Positions 57,040 through 63,239 of a stretch of DNA of 64,000 nucleotides are shown here, piece after piece. The stretch lies in contig NZ_CP116413.1 in assembly GCF_030064675.1 (NCBI RefSeq), forward strand, positions 6,976,001 to 7,040,000. The letters are read 5' to 3'. A program made the translations under genes and the position numbers. Source of the DNA: Crossiella sp. CA-258035. Its GTDB lineage: Bacteria > Actinomycetota > Actinomycetes > Mycobacteriales > Pseudonocardiaceae. Each line of letters opens with the position of its first letter. The stretch's first letter is position 1. The notes below the pieces were generated by a model. It made no database searches. It saw nothing but the letters and a program-made list of their open reading frames with translations, and was not told the origin of the DNA.

Positions 57040-57134
57040 GGAGGCGTATCCGGCCTGGTGACCGGCGCGGTCTTCAACACCGCTGAGCGGCAGCAGCTGT
57101 CGCTGGCGGGTTCGATTCCCGTCCGCCTCCGCCA
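57040..57134 (+). tRNA. selC: tRNA-Sec (anticodon TCA)
   Basis: Acceptor GGAGGCG pairs with CGCCTCC (57124-57130), followed by G and an encoded CCA (57132-57134). Anticodon stem GCGGT/ACCGC encloses CTTCAAC, with TCA at 57074-57076. A long variable arm (about 57084-57104) and T loop TTCGATT are present; total about 95 nt. Reads UGA as selenocysteine with SelA and SelB, encoded immediately downstream. Confidence 0.97.
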
Positions 57135-57146
57135 CCCGGGGCTGCG

Positions 57147-58460
57147 ATGACCGATCCACGCACCGAAGGCGGGTCGGCCGATCCCCGCAGGCACATCCCC
57201 CGCACCGATGCCTTGCTAACTGACCCGCGCCTGGCCGCGATGGCCGCCACCCTCGGCCGCGACACGGTCAAGGCCGCCATCACCCGCGCCCAGAGCCTCG
57301 CCCGCGCCGGCGAGATCGCGCCCGCCGAGGTGGCCGCGCACGCGCTGGCCGCGCTCCCCACTGGTGCGAGCAGCCTGCGCCCGGTGCTCAACGCCACCGG
57401 CGTGCTGGTGCACACCAACCTCGGCCGCGCCCCGCTCTCCCCCGCCGCCGTGGCCGCCATCGCCGCGGCCGCCGGGCCGACCGACGTGGAGTTCGACCTG
57501 GCCACCGGCGCCCGCGCCCGCCGGGGCCGGGACGCGCTGGCCGCGCTCGCCGAGGCGGTGCCCGCGGCCGGTGGCGTGCACGTGGTCAACAACAACGCCG
57601 CCGCGCTGCTGCTGTGCGCGCTGGCCATGGCCGCCGGACGGGAGATCGTGATCAGCCGCGGCGAGCTGGTGGAGATCGGCGACGGCTTCCGCATCCCGGA
57701 CCTGTTGCGCAGCACCGGCGCCCGCCTGCACGAGGTCGGCGCGACGAACCGGGTGCACCTGCGCGACTACGCCGAGGCGGTCGGCCAGGACACCGGTTTC
57801 ATCCTCAAGGTGCACCCGTCCAACTTCCAGGTCACCGGCTTCACCTCCACTGTGGACACCGCCGAGCTGGCCGGCCTCGGGGTGCCGGTGGTGGTGGACA
57901 TCGGTTCCGGTCTGCTGCACCCGCATCCGCTGCTGCCGGAGGAACCGGACGCCACCACGGCGTTGCGCGCAGGCGCGACCCTGGTCACCGCGAGCGGGGA
58001 CAAGCTGCTCGGCGGTCCGCAGGCCGGACTGCTGCTGGGCGAGGCGGAGCTGGTCGAGCGGCTGCGGCGGCATCCGGCGGCCCGCGCGCTGCGGGTGGAC
58101 AAGCTCACCCTGGCCGCGCTGGAGGCGACCCTGCGCGGACCGGAAACCCCGGTGGCGCAAGCACTTTCCGCGGGCCAGGACGAGCTGCTGGCCCGCGCCG
58201 GAGCGCTCGCGGCCGCACTGGTCGGGTCCGGTGTGGACGCGGTGGCGGTCCAGAGCATCGCCGCGGTCGGCGGTGGTGGCGCGCCGGGAGTGCCGCTGCC
58301 GAGTGCCGCGGTCAGCCTGCCCGAGCACTACGCCGCCGCCCTGCGCGCGCTGGCCGTGGTCGGCCGGGTGGAACGGGGACGCTGCCTGCTCGACCTGCGC
58401 GCCGTTGCCCCGCACCAGGACGACCACCTGCGCGCGGCGGTGCTGGCGGTGCCGCGCTGA
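57147..58460 (+). CDS. selA: L-seryl-tRNA(Sec) selenium transferase SelA
   Basis: 437 aa, normal length. PLP enzyme converting Ser-tRNA(Sec) to Sec-tRNA(Sec) using selenophosphate. Conserved NATGVLVHTNLGRAPLS, VNNNAAALLLCALAMAAGRE, and the PLP lysine in TASGDKLLGGPQAG. ATG 57147 lies 12 bases beyond the tRNA. Its stop overlaps the selB ATG by one base. Carries a near-copy of the GTCCACTGTGGAC palindrome (57845). selD is not in the window. Confidence 0.97.
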   Translation: MTDPRTEGGSADPRRHIPRTDALLTDPRLAAMAATLGRDTVKAAITRAQSLARAGEIAPAEVAAHALAALPTGASSLRPVLNATGVLVHTNLGRAPLSPAAVAAIAAAAGPTDVEFDLATGARARRGRDALAALAEAVPAAGGVHVVNNNAAALLLCALAMAAGREIVISRGELVEIGDGFRIPDLLRSTGARLHEVGATNRVHLRDYAEAVGQDTGFILKVHPSNFQVTGFTSTVDTAELAGLGVPVVVDIGSGLLHPHPLLPEEPDATTALRAGATLVTASGDKLLGGPQAGLLLGEAELVERLRRHPAARALRVDKLTLAALEATLRGPETPVAQALSAGQDELLARAGALAAALVGSGVDAVAVQSIAAVGGGGAPGVPLPSAAVSLPEHYAAALRALAVVGRVERGRCLLDLRAVAPHQDDHLRAAVLAVPR

Positions 58461-60157
58461 TGCGGGTGGTGGCCACCGCCGGGCACGTCGACCACGGCAA
58501 GTCCACCCTGGTCCGCCTGCTCACCGGGATGGAACCGGACCGCTGGGCCGAGGAGCGCCGCCGGGGCCTGACCATCGACCTGGGTTTCGCCTGGACCACG
58601 CTGTCCGGGCAGGAGATCGCCTTCGTCGACGTGCCGGGGCACCACCGGTTCGTGCCCAACATGCTCGCCGGGATCGGGCCGGTGCCCGCGGTGCTGTTCG
58701 TGGTGGCCGCGGACGAGGGCTGGAAACCCCAGTCCGCCGAACACCTGGCCGCGATCCGCGCGCTCGGCGTCCGGCACCTGCTGCTGGCCATCACCCGCGC
58801 CGACCTCGCCGACCCGGAAACCGCGCTGCGCCAAGCCGAACAGCACCTGGGCGCGGTTCCGCACGTGGTGGTCAGCGCGACCACCGGACAGGGACTGGAC
58901 GAGCTGCGGGCCGCGATCCTCGCGCTGACCGACCGGCTGCCCGCGCCCGAGCCCGCGGCGGACGTGCGGCTGTGGCTGGACCGCTCGTTCACCGTGGGCG
59001 GCGCGGGCACGGTGGTCACCGGGACGCTCAGCGCGGGCACCATCGCCAAGGGCGAGGAGCTCCAGCTCGCCTCCACCGGGCAGCTGCTCCGGGTGCGCGG
59101 CCTGCACGCCCTGGGCCGCCAGTGCGACCTCGTGCCCGCGGTGGCCCGGATCGCGGTCAACCTGCGCGGGGTCGAGCGGACCGAGCTGGTGCGCGGGGAC
59201 GCGCTGCTCAGCCCCGGCCGCTGGCGCACCGCGACCGTGGTCGACGTCCTCATCGGCGCCGAGCTGCCGGCGGAACTGGTGGCGCACCTGGGATCGGCCG
59301 CGGTGCCGGTGCGGGTCCGTCCACTGGGGACGGTCGGCGCCCGGCTGCGGCTGGCCCGGCCGCTGCCGCTGCGGATCGGGGATCGGCTGCTGCTGCGCGA
59401 TCCCGGCCGGGGCGAGGTGCTGGGCGGGGCGGAGGTCGTCGATCTCGATCCGCGGCCGCTGCGCCGGGGCGGGGCCGCGGCCAGGGCAGCCGAGCTGACC
59501 GACGATCCACTGGCGATCCACCTGCGCACCAGAGGTTTCGCCCGGACGGCTGAACTGCGGGCCGCTGGGCTGTCCGCGCCGGAACCGGTTCTGGCGGACT
59601 GGCACGCTGATCCAGAGCACTGGGCCGCCATGGTCCGGCGCGCGCCCGGAGAGGTCGAGTCGTGGCGACAGGAGCACCCGCTCGAACCGGGGATGCCCGC
59701 CGAGGCGCTGCGACAGCGGCTGGACCTGCCCGAGGTGGCGCTGGTCGGGCCGCTGGCGAACGCGGCGGGGCTGGCGGTGCCGGCGGGGCGGGTCGGCGGC
59801 GCGGAGCTGCCCGCGCGGATCGAGCAGGCGCTGGGCGCGCTCGCGGCGGAGCTGGCCGGGAACCCGTTCGCCGCACCGGATGCGGCCCGGCTGGTCGAGC
59901 TGGGGCTGGGCGGCAAGGAGCTGGCGGCGGCAGTGCGGGCCGGGCGGCTGCTGCGGGTCGCCGAGGGTGTCGTGCTGTCACCCGATGCGGTCACTCAAGC
60001 CGTGAAGGTGTTGGCCATGCTCGCTGCCCCGTTCACGGTGAGTCAGGCGCGGCAGGCGCTGGGCACCAGCCGCCGGGTGGCGGTGCCGCTGCTGGAACTG
60101 CTGGACCGGCGCGGGATCACCGAGCGGCTGGCGGACTCGTCCCGCCGCCTGCGCTGA
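58460..60157 (+). CDS. selB: Selenocysteine-specific elongation factor SelB
   Basis: 565 aa. EF-Tu-like GTPase domain (TAGHVDHGKSTLVRLL, VDVPGHHRFVPNM, TRAD in place of NKxD), beta-barrel domains 2 and 3, and C-terminal winged helices (KVLAMLAAPFTVSQARQALG) that bind the SECIS hairpin. It brings Sec-tRNA to in-frame UGA codons. ATG 58460 overlaps the selA stop. The 3' end overlaps the convergent MauE-like gene by 41 bp. Confidence 0.97.
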   Translation: MRVVATAGHVDHGKSTLVRLLTGMEPDRWAEERRRGLTIDLGFAWTTLSGQEIAFVDVPGHHRFVPNMLAGIGPVPAVLFVVAADEGWKPQSAEHLAAIRALGVRHLLLAITRADLADPETALRQAEQHLGAVPHVVVSATTGQGLDELRAAILALTDRLPAPEPAADVRLWLDRSFTVGGAGTVVTGTLSAGTIAKGEELQLASTGQLLRVRGLHALGRQCDLVPAVARIAVNLRGVERTELVRGDALLSPGRWRTATVVDVLIGAELPAELVAHLGSAAVPVRVRPLGTVGARLRLARPLPLRIGDRLLLRDPGRGEVLGGAEVVDLDPRPLRRGGAAARAAELTDDPLAIHLRTRGFARTAELRAAGLSAPEPVLADWHADPEHWAAMVRRAPGEVESWRQEHPLEPGMPAEALRQRLDLPEVALVGPLANAAGLAVPAGRVGGAELPARIEQALGALAAELAGNPFAAPDAARLVELGLGGKELAAAVRAGRLLRVAEGVVLSPDAVTQAVKVLAMLAAPFTVSQARQALGTSRRVAVPLLELLDRRGITERLADSSRRLR

Positions 60158-60662
60158 ACACCGGGGCCAGCCAGGCGATCGCGGCGAGCACGAGGCTCGC
60201 GGCCAGGGCGGGCAGCAGCCAGCTTTTCGGCAGGGGCGGCGCAAACGTGGTCACCAGCGTCGCGGCCGCGGCGAGGGTCGCGCGCAGGACCGTCGCCCAG
60301 GTGGCCGGGGAGCGGGAGTTGAAGCAACCGCAGGGCGTGCCGGGCCTGGTGCGCACCAAGATGCCCAGGTATGCGGCAAAGGCCAGGTAGAGGGCAGTCT
60401 GTGGCAACAGCAGAGCACGTGGCAGGGAGGGCAGCAGCACGGTGGCGGTGGTGAGGGCCGCGGCCAGGAGTTCCGTGGCCGGGGTGAGCAAGGACACGGG
60501 ACGGTGCACGGTCGGCGGCAGCAGGCGTTGCGCACGGAGCGTGGCCAGGAAGAGTGTACGTTCGCGCAGGTGGCCGAGTCCGGCTACCAACAGGAGCAGT
60601 GCGGCGCCGAGCGAACAGGCGTTGAGCACGGCGGAGAACACTCGATGAGGGTAACCGGACAC
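60117..60662 (-). CDS. MauE/DoxX-like membrane protein
   Basis: 181 aa with four hydrophobic helices (LGAALLLLVAGLGHL, LLTPATELLAAALTTATVLL, ALYLAFAAYLGILV, LPALAASLVLAAIAWLAPVF) and the MauE-type redox motif PCGCFNSRSP. MauE is needed for maturation of methylamine dehydrogenase small subunit with disulfides and tryptophylquinone. GTG 60662 or GTG 60641 are possible starts. Divergent (68 bp) from the downstream Mau-like operon, and the 3' end overlaps selB by 41 bp. Confidence 0.82.
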   Translation of the reverse strand: MSGYPHRVFSAVLNACSLGAALLLLVAGLGHLRERTLFLATLRAQRLLPPTVHRPVSLLTPATELLAAALTTATVLLPSLPRALLLPQTALYLAFAAYLGILVRTRPGTPCGCFNSRSPATWATVLRATLAAAATLVTTFAPPLPKSWLLPALAASLVLAAIAWLAPVFSAGGGTSPPAAR

Positions 60663-60730
60663 CCGAATGATGGCTGTTGATCTTCTCTGCGGCCGTGTTT
60701 CATGAACCAGCCCTGGCGAGAGGAAAGGTG

Positions 60731-61444
60731 ATGGCGACCCAGCAGTTGACGCTGACCGCGCCCAGCGGGCGCCGGGTGAGCGTCACGCTGCCCGCGCACA
60801 CCCCGGTGTCCAGTGTGGCCGCGGGGATCCGGTTCGCCGGTGGCGTGCACGGCACCGGCTTCCAGATCGGGTCGCGCGGCTACCACGAGTTCGCGGTCAC
60901 CCAGGTGGCGCCGATGCGGCAGCGGGAGCGGTTCCTGGTGCACGGCAGGGAGGTGGTGGTCGCCGAGGCGATCGACGGCCAGTCCTCGCTGGCCACCCTG
61001 TTCGGGGTCTACCACGAGCTGATGACCGTCTACTCCGGACCCGCGCCGCACCGGGACGCGGTGTTCGCGCTGTTCAACTCCTTGCGGGTGCAGGACACCG
61101 TGGCCGGGATGGTGGTGCGGCCGCGGTCGGCGACCATGCTGGAGCTGATGAGCGAGCAGATCATGCTGGCCGTCCGGGACCACGGCTCGCTGTCCATTCC
61201 CGGTCCGCGCCAGGCCGCCGGGCTCACCCCGCGCTTCGCCGGGGCGCGCACCCGGCACGGCGAGGTGTGGAAAACTCCGTACCCCGGCGCGGCAGGGTCG
61301 GCACGGGCCAGCGAGCACGCGTTTGTGCTCGGCTGCCCGGCGGGCACCGCCGAGGTGCACCTGTGCGACACCGGCGCGACCACCGAACGGCAACGGCTGG
61401 ACTGGCTGAACGAGATCAACGTGGTCTGGCACAAGGCGAACTGA
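60731..61444 (+). CDS. Unknown 237-aa protein of the Mau-like cluster
   Basis: Soluble protein without signal or membrane segments; no domain recognised. It starts as a small beta-rich domain (LTLTAPSGRRVSVTLPAHTP), followed by SRGYHEFAVTQVAPMRQRER and VRDHGSLSIPGPRQAAGLTP. It has two Cys in the last quarter (VLGCP, HLCDTG). ATG 60731 has GAGGAAAGG upstream. First gene of a four- or five-gene unit, so it may be a cytoplasmic partner, chaperone or modifying protein for the exported Cys-rich protein. Confidence 0.75.
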   Translation: MATQQLTLTAPSGRRVSVTLPAHTPVSSVAAGIRFAGGVHGTGFQIGSRGYHEFAVTQVAPMRQRERFLVHGREVVVAEAIDGQSSLATLFGVYHELMTVYSGPAPHRDAVFALFNSLRVQDTVAGMVVRPRSATMLELMSEQIMLAVRDHGSLSIPGPRQAAGLTPRFAGARTRHGEVWKTPYPGAAGSARASEHAFVLGCPAGTAEVHLCDTGATTERQRLDWLNEINVVWHKAN

Positions 61445-61451
61445 GACGGGT

Positions 61452-61952
61452 ATGTCACCGGAAATGGCCTTCAACATCATCACCTGGGTGGCGATCCTGG
61501 TGCTGTTCCTCGGACTCGCCGCGGTGCTGCGGGAGATCCGCCTGCTGCGCAACGAGGTCCGGCGCAGCCCGGAGGCCTTCGCGGCCGCCCCGCCGGAGCT
61601 GCTGCTCGGCCCCCGCTTCGCCGGGCGGGGGCGGCGGATCGTGCTGGCCGCCGACTCCGGCTGCCCGCTCTGCCACGCCGTGCTGGACCGGCTGCTGGCC
61701 TTGGCACCCGGCTCGGTGCTGCTGACGCATGAGCCGGAAGCGTTGTGGGCCAAGGTGTCCGGCCAACTGGAGGTGGTCAGCGACGGCGAGGTGTGGCGCG
61801 CGGTCTCGCACCTGTCGCCGCCGGTGCTGATGCTGGTGGACGGCACCGGCCGGGCCGAGCGGGTGCACCTGCCGGTGCGGGTGGCCGAGGTGGACACGGT
61901 GCTGGCCGAATGGCAGCGGATCGTGGTGCGGGGGCACGCCGATGCCGCTTGA
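61452..61952 (+). CDS. MauD-like membrane-anchored thioredoxin-fold protein
   Basis: 166 aa. An N-terminal transmembrane helix (IITWVAILVLFLGLAAVL) is followed by a periplasm-type thioredoxin-like domain with CPLC redox motif (VLAADSGCPLCHAVLDRLLA), and a cis-Pro-like VSHLSPPVLMLVDG. MauD with MauE supports disulfide formation in methylamine dehydrogenase small subunit. ATG 61452, 8 bp after the previous stop. It overlaps the following gene by 11 bp, so the genes are coupled. Confidence 0.85.
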   Translation: MSPEMAFNIITWVAILVLFLGLAAVLREIRLLRNEVRRSPEAFAAAPPELLLGPRFAGRGRRIVLAADSGCPLCHAVLDRLLALAPGSVLLTHEPEALWAKVSGQLEVVSDGEVWRAVSHLSPPVLMLVDGTGRAERVHLPVRVAEVDTVLAEWQRIVVRGHADAA

Positions 61953-62502
61953 CCTCAACGACATCCCGGACACCGATCAGGCCCCCGCGGACGCGCGGCC
62001 GACCACCGCGTTGCGCGAACTGGACTTCACCGGCAGCCGCCGCGCCCTGTTCAAGGCCCTCGCGCTGGGCGCGGTCACGGTGGGCGCGAGCGCGCTGAAC
62101 CTGTTCGGCGCGCGCCCGGCCGGCGCGGAGGCCGGTCCGTACGCCCTGTCCGGCTGGGACCGCAACGACTGCAAGGACGCCTACCCCAACGGCTACGCCG
62201 AGGTCGGTGACACCACCGGCGCGTACGTCAGCACCCACGCGGCCTGCCTGTCCGGCACCTGGCGCGGCTCGGTGTACTGCGAGAAGGGCTGGCACAAGTA
62301 CGGGACCTACGAGAACGGCGCGATGCAGAGTCAGCACGTGCCGATCTCCACCTCCTGCGGCACCTCCACCACCAAGAACGCGTGGAAGTGGACCACCCCG
62401 GACGGCAAGGTGTGGCGCTGCTCGGACGGCTATTCGACGTTCTGGGGTCCTGGCCACAGTGGACAGACGTACCTGACGATCTGCCGGGCTCCTGTGCTGT
62501 GA
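61942..62502 (+). CDS. Tat-exported Cys/Trp-rich protein, methylamine dehydrogenase light-chain-like
   Basis: 186 aa. A long N-terminal extension ends in a twin-arginine signal (FTGSRRALFKALALGAVTVG, cleaved near ARPAGAEA). The mature part of about 130 residues has six Cys and seven Trp (GWDRNDCKDAY, AACLSGTWRGSVYCEKGWHK, NAWKWTTPDGKVWRCSDGY). The long Tat leader and Cys/Trp density recall MauA, whose two Trp form tryptophylquinone, but there are six Cys rather than about twelve and no heavy-chain gene. Likely the cargo of the MauD/MauE-like proteins. Stop overlaps the next GTG by 3-4 bases. Confidence 0.75.
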   Translation: MPLDLNDIPDTDQAPADARPTTALRELDFTGSRRALFKALALGAVTVGASALNLFGARPAGAEAGPYALSGWDRNDCKDAYPNGYAEVGDTTGAYVSTHAACLSGTWRGSVYCEKGWHKYGTYENGAMQSQHVPISTSCGTSTTKNAWKWTTPDGKVWRCSDGYSTFWGPGHSGQTYLTICRAPVL

Positions 62503-62639
62503 GCAGGCTGCACTGGCATCCGCTGGCCGGAGCCGCCGCCGTGCTCGCGCTGGCCGCCGCCGCGACGGGTTTGCCCGTGCTGGCCGGGTGGCTGGCGATG
62601 GGCGCGGCCTCGGGGTTCGCCACCAGCGGCTCCACCTGA
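62499..62639 (+). CDS. 5' frame of membrane protein, ending at in-frame TGA
   Basis: 46 codons from GTG 62499 (GTGA overlap with the previous stop) to TGA 62637. They encode a hydrophobic helix-turn-helix-length segment (LAGAAAVLALAAAATGLPVL, GWLAMGAASGFATSGST). After the TGA the same frame stays open with six G/C-ending codons and enters the frame annotated from 62658. It is either a separate small membrane peptide or the N-terminal part of one 246-aa protein with UGA decoded as selenocysteine. Confidence 0.6.
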   Translation: MSRLHWHPLAGAAAVLALAAAATGLPVLAGWLAMGAASGFATSGST

Positions 62640-62693
62640 AGCCGGAACTCGGCCCTGGTGCTGAGCTCGCCGGTCTGGCGAGGCACTCCGGCG
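62637..62693 (+). promoter_or_regulatory. In-frame TGA with downstream SECIS-like hairpin
   Basis: TGA at 62637-62639. The hairpin CTCGCC (62666-62671) - GGTCT - GGCGAG (62677-62682) is a perfect 6-bp stem. A lower stem GTGC/GCAC (62658-62661 with 62683-62686) is joined through a 4-base 5' bulge. The loop GGUCU is the loop sequence of the E. coli fdhF SECIS as I recall it. It begins 33 bases after the TGA, within the usual UGA-loop distance for bacterial SECIS. Also foldable: CGCCGG (62668) with CCGGCG (62688). Confidence 0.45.
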
Positions 62694-63239
62694 GTGGCCT
62701 TCTGCCTGGGACTGCTGGGCGGCGGCCTGGTCACCGCGACCGTACTGGTGGTGGTCGGCTCGCTGCTGCGCGCCCCGCTGCCGCCGCCCGTGCCCTGGCT
62801 GCTGGTCGGGCTGATGCTCATCGTGGTGCTGGGCAAGGAGCTCGGCTGGCTGCGGATCCGGTTGCCGGAGAACCGGCGGCTGGTGCCGGAGACGGTGTTC
62901 CGGCTGGGGCGGCACGCCGGGCCGTTCCAGTTCGGGCTGGAGATGGGCACCGGGGCGCGCACCTACCTGCCCAGTGGGCTGCCGTACGTGGCCGCGGTCG
63001 CGGTGCTGTTCCTGGCCTCCGTGCCGGCCGCGCTGTGCGCCGGGCTGGGTTTTGGCCTGGGTCGGGCGCTGATGACCACGGCGAACCTGCGCTTCGGCGA
63101 GAGCGGGGCGTGGGACGCGGCGTGGACTCGCCACCGCCGCGTCCTCACCCTGCTCCTCGGGCTCGCGTTCCTGCTGGCGCTGCTGGTGTTGCTGCTCAGC
63201 GATCCGACAGTCCGTATGCCCGGTACACGGTCTGGCTGA
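62658..63239 (+). CDS. Polytopic membrane protein (3' part of possible UGA-containing gene)
   Basis: 193 codons from GTG 62658. Four or five hydrophobic helices (AVAFCLGLLGGGLVTATVLV, VPWLLVGLMLIVVLGKEL, YVAAVAVLFLASVPAALCAG, VLTLLLGLAFLLALLVLLL) separated by a polar region rich in Arg (RIRLPENRRLVPETVFRLGR). No family recognised. GTG 62658 has only a weak ribosome-site-like sequence (CCGGAA), so translation by coupling or read-through from 62499 is likely. Probably the membrane component of the Mau-like cluster. Convergent with the secreted peptidase-like gene (44-bp overlap). Confidence 0.7.
   Translation: MLSSPVWRGTPAVAFCLGLLGGGLVTATVLVVVGSLLRAPLPPPVPWLLVGLMLIVVLGKELGWLRIRLPENRRLVPETVFRLGRHAGPFQFGLEMGTGARTYLPSGLPYVAAVAVLFLASVPAALCAGLGFGLGRALMTTANLRFGESGAWDAAWTRHRRVLTLLLGLAFLLALLVLLLSDPTVRMPGTRSG

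Follow-up and report, generated by a model that had tools for sequence, protein, structure and literature searches.

A candidate selenoprotein family of actinobacterial membranes, encoded beside the selenocysteine genes of Crossiella

Introduction

Does the UGA at position 62637 end a short gene, where standard annotation would end it, or does it encode selenocysteine (Sec) within a longer one? The question arises in the window (the whole 64,000-nucleotide stretch of DNA analysed here), part of a 9.17 Mb genome in a single contig. A reading frame opens at GTG 62499, a start that overlaps the stop of the preceding gene (GTGA, 62499–62502), runs through TGA 62637–62639 and closes with the stop at 63237–63239, giving 246 residues with Sec at 47. 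The frame is present in the window as the preliminary description had it, with a single TGA, and its reading as a candidate selenoprotein is supported by a conserved UGA motif, a conserved hairpin and a link to selC. The probability that the in-frame stop is a UGA read as Sec, and that the gene encodes an integral-membrane selenoprotein, is put at about 0.93; both Sec insertion itself and membrane topology are deduced from sequence. The strong part of the case is comparative, and does not lie in the hairpin by itself. The features concerned are as follows.

57040–57134, plus strand: selC (tRNA-Sec), found by ARAGORN; RF01852 match of 78.6 bits
57147–58460, plus strand: selA (PF03841, E 2.9e-97)
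58460–60157, plus strand: selB (PF00009 (GTP_EFTU), SelB-wing_3 and SelB beta-barrel)
60117–60662, minus strand: MauE-family (PF07291) membrane protein (Pfam E 4.5e-19)
60677–61444, plus strand: conserved protein with no assigned function (ORF of 255 residues, though translation may begin at a later codon); found upstream at 62 of 79 related loci
61452–61952, plus strand: MauD/thioredoxin-like protein whose N-terminus is hydrophobic and which carries a CPLC motif; found upstream at 44 of 79 loci, CxxC in 44 of 44
61942–62502, plus strand: small Cys- and Trp-rich protein that has a twin-arginine-like leader; found upstream at 47 of 79 loci
62499–63239, plus strand: predicted membrane selenoprotein gene; TGA at one motif, full-length product modelled as one domain
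62637–62639, plus strand: putative Sec-encoding UGA codon; TGA in 87 of 87 distinct sequences compared (a count that leaves out the divergent paralogue L125, also TGA), between invariant S-G-S and N-S
62666–62682, plus strand: putative SECIS hairpin with 6-bp stem and GGUCU loop; pairs form in 425 of 426 cells across 71 distinct sequences

Results

Conservation of the UGA motif

A first search, of 60 genomes, found copies close to full length in six of them; there were nine, the window's own included, each with TGA at the motif. Among 346 family genomes, 70 had a match, at 76 places, 69 with an in-frame TGA and seven without; a UGA-bearing copy was present in 64 genomes, and at all 69 TGA-bearing places the codon sat in SGSx-UGA-[ST]xNS. 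The UGA was likewise found in 79 of 79 loci from a named genome collection, in a scan of the best 80 of 123 confirmed places. The closest locus among those best 80 was that of Crossiella sp. SN42 (L040, 96%), and others belonged to Amycolatopsis, Saccharothrix, Pseudonocardia, Micromonospora, Actinoplanes, Nonomuraea, Herbidospora, Streptomyces, Mobilicoccus, Phycicoccus and Pimelobacter. The family, called here SGSTU, is spread across the phylum and is broader than the single-genome case first noted.

The motif was present in 117 of the 123 matches of the fetched sets, which contain duplicate genes and reduce to 99 distinct 150-nt stretches. Across 77 aligned proteins S43, G44, S45, N50 and S51 are invariant, and several of the codons for invariant residues vary at the third position while the residue stays the same. 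An alignment of homologues had been proposed at the outset as a check: it has conserved residues on both sides of the UGA, and the codon is TGA in the motif-bearing members. No TAA or TAG was seen in the matches from the 346 family genomes and the named loci. The preliminary description had set against a selenoprotein three patterns, namely homologues that are always two proteins, a stop other than TGA with no Cys/Sec column, and a hairpin that is not conserved, and the homologues have none of these.

Among the seven places without TGA, the motif is decayed in one genome (G215), is lost in four genomes of one genus, and falls beyond the end of two fragments. None of the five motif-less places that cover the site has Cys, and no Cys form of the SGSTU subfamily was found among the matches. 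A Cys/Sec column, also anticipated earlier, exists, but only in the remote sister subfamily described below; in the SGSTU subfamily no Cys was seen.

Several individual loci may be recorded here. Where the Sec motif has decayed or gone (L119 in G215; L120–L123 in G192, G349, G325 and G331) there is no change to Cys; G215 has no clear selC, which is kept in the other four genomes despite the lost motif. A shortened second copy (L010, G033:C47:476502-476735), apparently a pseudogene, occurs in a genome that also has a full-length UGA-bearing one. Phytoactinopolyspora limicola (L082) and Actinoplanes flavus (L056) each have two different UGA-bearing members on opposite strands, plus selC, within 17 kb. 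A plasmid collection yielded one Nonomuraea record with two places, neither covering 80%.

A sister subfamily with Sec and Cys forms

The profile of 77 proteins matched 34 of 396 phylum genomes, and the matches were mostly distant relatives bearing SP[U/C]GxSM. Comparison of the SGSTU and SP[U/C]G profiles gave a probability of 99.3% (E 9.8e-21) with the Sec columns aligned. A profile of this sister subfamily found a match in 72 of the 396 genomes, at 79 places, 55 of them with an in-frame TGA, and about 53 genomes had such a TGA-bearing match. The 24 places without TGA include eight confirmed as Cys, one unreadable at the site and one with TAG, the others being partial or outside the confirmed set. 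Cys at the Sec column was confirmed in eight genomes, all in the sister subfamily.

The two forms differ in what accompanies them. A hairpin at −7.5 kcal/mol or better was present in 27 of 29 distinct Sec forms vs one of eight Cys forms, with a one-sided p of 4e-5; the script's motif missed another three Sec loci, namely L208, L210 and L211. A clear selC, taken as at least 56 bits, a cut chosen after the gap was seen, occurred in 21 of 22 Sec-form genomes vs one of eight Cys-form genomes (30 sister genomes in all). The exceptions are G516, a Sec form with 51 bits in an assembly 87% complete, and G467, a Cys form with a clear selC. G467 (L196, L254) also has a second, distant match with an in-frame TGA; it was considered as a Sec paralogue and dropped, as it has no SP[U/C]G motif.

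Link to the selenocysteine machinery

The genes selA, selB, selC and selD are all encoded in the window's genome. A selC-selA-selB set had been placed 2.3 kb upstream on the same strand, and this was confirmed by ARAGORN and Pfam, the end of selB lying 2.3 kb before 62499. A strong selC (RF01852, E 1e-12 or better) is present in 63 of the 64 genomes with the UGA gene; the exception, G161, has the gene and no clear selC in an assembly 87% complete. Given that RF01852 matches over the cut-off are found in 239 of the 346 family genomes, a high base rate, a sharper test was made within three genera chosen because they are mixed for gene presence. There, selC occurs in 23 of 23 gene-positive vs 14 of 66 gene-negative genomes (p 5e-12). 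The best selB match scored 234–251 bits in 13 gene-positive genomes (eight over the cut-off) and 195–208 in seven negatives, and selA, selB or selC lies within 20 of the 79 loci.

The same genome has another copy of the predicted membrane selenoprotein gene directly beside selD, at a place outside the window (contig C1, 931567–933215; L130, L212). This paralogue, at 931567–932265, ends about 50 bases from selD at 932313, and both copies in the genome adjoin sel genes, the one selC-selA-selB and the other selD.

No in-frame TGA occurs in the ten formate dehydrogenase matches of the window's genome, nor in its SelD. A formate dehydrogenase match with an in-frame TGA was found in four of five other genomes checked, and no Sec formate dehydrogenase was detected in two of the six genomes checked. 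Amycolatopsis vancoresmycina DSM 44592 appears as an 'orphan SelD' in Table 1 of PMC5029168. The SGSTU gene was considered as the explanation and rejected, since G350 (L043; taken as that species) has selC, selB and a TGA-bearing formate dehydrogenase match; as far as that table goes, an incomplete draft is the likelier cause of the listing.

The downstream hairpin

The hairpin at 62666–62682 (CUCGCC-GGUCU-GGCGAG) is exact in the sequence, with the perfect 6-bp stem and GGUCU loop first reported for it. The distance from the UGA to the start of the loop is 32 nt. The bacterial SECIS model, as set out in the relevant part of PMC13188914, places the element 16–37 nt after the UGA with a G in the first two loop positions; the window's loop fits this model, and the earlier statement that the distance falls in the reported bacterial range stands.

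The earlier caution that hairpins are common proved well placed. A generic SECIS-like hairpin (at least 6 bp, a loop of 3–9 nt, G in the first two loop positions and an appropriate distance) turns up in 31% of random window stretches, and the hairpin alone was rejected as evidence for that reason. A stem of at least 6 bp around exactly GGTCT occurs in 0.1% of such stretches. Of 92 distinct SGSTU sequences, 85 have a hairpin that reaches −7.5 kcal/mol or better, as do 19% of random window stretches, and the folding of the 60-nt stretch as a whole is not unusually stable (z −1.64).

Comparison across the family is more informative. Over the 71 distinct sequences, 99.8% of stem cells are paired vs 92.6% in shuffled sets (reached in 0 of 500) and 34–51% when the stem is slid. 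The pair adjoining the base of the stem, 31-45, is UA in 29, UG in 21 and GC in 21 of the 71; by script over 85 distinct stretches it is TA in 39, TG in 24 and GC in 21, the divergent paralogue L125 being without the pattern, and in 33 places fetched later it is GC in 15, TA in 10 and TG in eight, paired in all 33. With this change one codon goes from TCG (Ser) to GCG (Ala), and the Arg codon from CGA/CGG to CGC. Three of the six stem pairs never vary, the pair-keeping changes rest mainly on one pair, and the pair at the base of the stem shows a both-side change in one sequence only. The sequences are related by descent and these changes are not a count of independent events; two of five hairpin measures, including the number of pairs with a both-side change, were reached by 19 of 500 shuffles.

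The protein and its neighbours

The read-through product was modelled from 77 sequences as one all-helical domain (pLDDT 93.6, pTM 0.91), with Sec47 at the start of a short helix, 46–55, that follows helix 27–41. Foldseek against the PDB gave a best E of 0.47, with none below 0.001, and a profile search of the PDB with the membrane protein found nothing relevant. There was no match above cut-off in Pfam (77 members and six sister proteins) or in NCBIfam (one member and six sister proteins). In the protein alignments Cys or Sec is conserved at the Sec column alone, and there is no second conserved Cys. SGSTU is very probably an actinobacterial selenoprotein family absent from the family libraries searched.

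At least one of the three upstream genes is present in 67 of the 79 loci, and a MauE-like gene lies within 4.5 kb in 32; these neighbour counts are lower bounds, since the upstream sequence is shorter than 3 kb in seven loci and a search with a single sequence misses members that have diverged. The product of 60677–61444 has no Pfam or NCBIfam match. The neighbours were initially called redox-related, MauE- and MauD-like; this is confirmed in part, the first label by the PF07291 match, whereas the protein given the second, at 61452–61952, carries a CPLC motif but is itself unmatched in Pfam. For the Tat-type Cys-rich protein, RR, four Cys and two Trp are invariant in 14 chosen members, and no relevant Pfam or PDB match was found.

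Variants of these neighbours occur around the sister subfamily. Its Cys-rich protein is fused to LGFP repeats (PF08310) at L201 and L203, two of four sister loci tested; LGFP repeats are cell-wall linked, and the system may therefore serve cell-wall proteins. The MauE proteins encoded next to two Cys forms (PF07291 E 1e-17 and 7e-18) carry an additional fused domain, which in one falls just under the cut-off for Thioredoxin_3 (E 4e-5) and in the other gives only a weak hint.

Discussion

Very probably the UGA is decoded as Sec and does not divide two genes. Two coupled genes, a 46-residue peptide ending at the UGA and a 193-residue protein from GTG 62658, are extremely unlikely. GTG 62658 is present in the window, and an in-frame start seven codons after the TGA exists in 37 of 92 distinct sequences; in at least 40 of the other 55, however, the next in-frame ATG, GTG or TTG is at least 17 codons on, and up to 68. 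The invariant N50 and S51 are encoded between the UGA and GTG 62658, neither TAA nor TAG was seen among the family-genome and named-locus matches, the sister subfamily has Cys forms at the UGA column, and the read-through product models as one domain, all of which argue against separate proteins. Read-through without Sec, in which a near-cognate or suppressor tRNA yields the full-length product, would also conserve coding on both sides of the UGA, but it gives no reason to expect a link to selC and selB, a conserved GGUCU hairpin, or Cys forms mostly without that hairpin, and is very unlikely too. Sec decoding would then proceed by SelB, guided by hairpin 62666–62682, inserting selenocysteine at UGA 62637.

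What the selenol does is a more tentative matter. In the conserved cluster the membrane selenoprotein gene comes last, after those for the protein of no assigned function, the thioredoxin-like protein and the Tat-type Cys-rich protein, often with a MauE-family gene near. The single selenol would transfer electrons or oxidising equivalents between membrane and CxxC protein, and the latter would in turn form or repair disulfides in the exported Cys-rich protein. With no second conserved Cys in the membrane protein, the resolving thiol would sit in a partner. Such a relay, with its export, partners and electron direction conjectural, is credited with somewhat less than an even chance, because there is no match to a solved fold and no second conserved Cys, and the partners are assigned by neighbourhood only. 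Its main rival is that Sec is real and takes part in no thiol relay, the selenolate instead binding a metal or cofactor or reducing peroxide in the membrane. The conserved Sec without Cys beside it or a C-x-x-U pair, and the lack of a match to any solved thiol-transfer fold, agree with that function, whereas the CxxC protein upstream in 44 of 79 loci, the Cys-rich Tat-type neighbour, and the MauE fused to a weakly thioredoxin-similar domain beside two Cys forms speak against it; it is a serious possibility, on balance rather doubtful.

The proposed membrane relay may be compared with known systems. CcdA and DsbD relays likewise employ a small multi-helix membrane protein, and the SP[U/C] motif of the sister subfamily presumably resembles the SPC of CcdA. 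The CcdA/DsbD membrane domain has a pair of conserved membrane cysteines, whereas the SGSTU and sister family has one conserved Sec/Cys. A sub-threshold DsbD_2 match (E 0.01) was obtained for one of six sister proteins; identity with CcdA/DsbD was not borne out, there being no Pfam match above cut-off, no PDB fold match and no conserved Cys pair. The methylamine utilisation cluster (mau; mauD/mauE/mauF) is alike in that a single cluster combines a MauE-family gene with genes for a CxxC protein, a membrane protein and a Cys-rich protein of Tat type, and differs in its MauA light chain (PF02975), which is unmatched by the window's Cys-rich protein; an identity with MauA was not borne out for that protein, which matches neither PF02975 nor a relevant PDB chain.

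The gene shares with the bacterial selenoproteins whose SECIS lies in the coding region (119 families and subfamilies in Table 1 of PMC13188914) an in-frame UGA, a G in the apical loop and the 16–37 nt distance, and SelB, SelA, SelD and selC are likewise encoded in the window's genome. It differs from the families of that table in its motif, SGSTUSRNSA or SPUGxSM, and in having no UxxC or CxxU pair. That 2026 table holds no recognisable entry for either motif, and, as far as this catalogue is concerned, GST-UGA-SRN was rightly described at the outset as matching no known Sec motif. No literature on the SGSTU family was found in a search to which preprints and most subscription journals were external.

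These observations may bear on how selenoproteins are recognised. The superfamily is found in more than 100 of the searched genomes (64 plus about 53), with no model in the family libraries tried; in one record with a match, whose gene table is incomplete, no feature is listed at the place. According to the pertinent part of PMC12013277, Cys homologues seem to exist for every known selenoprotein, and deep-Sep may discard those without; the SGSTU subfamily is, within its own clade, a candidate exception to the rule as stated there. The gene also offers a reason for the Sec machinery where no Sec formate dehydrogenase was detected, and membrane chemistry by a single Sec that has no Cys partner can be put directly to the test. 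It is possible, though offered here with reserve, that SGSTU is an obligate-Sec subfamily without a Cys counterpart of its own, that it, and not formate dehydrogenase or SelD, keeps the Sec trait in some actinobacteria, and that it would stand at the centre of an extracytoplasmic selenol redox system dedicated to an exported Cys-rich protein.
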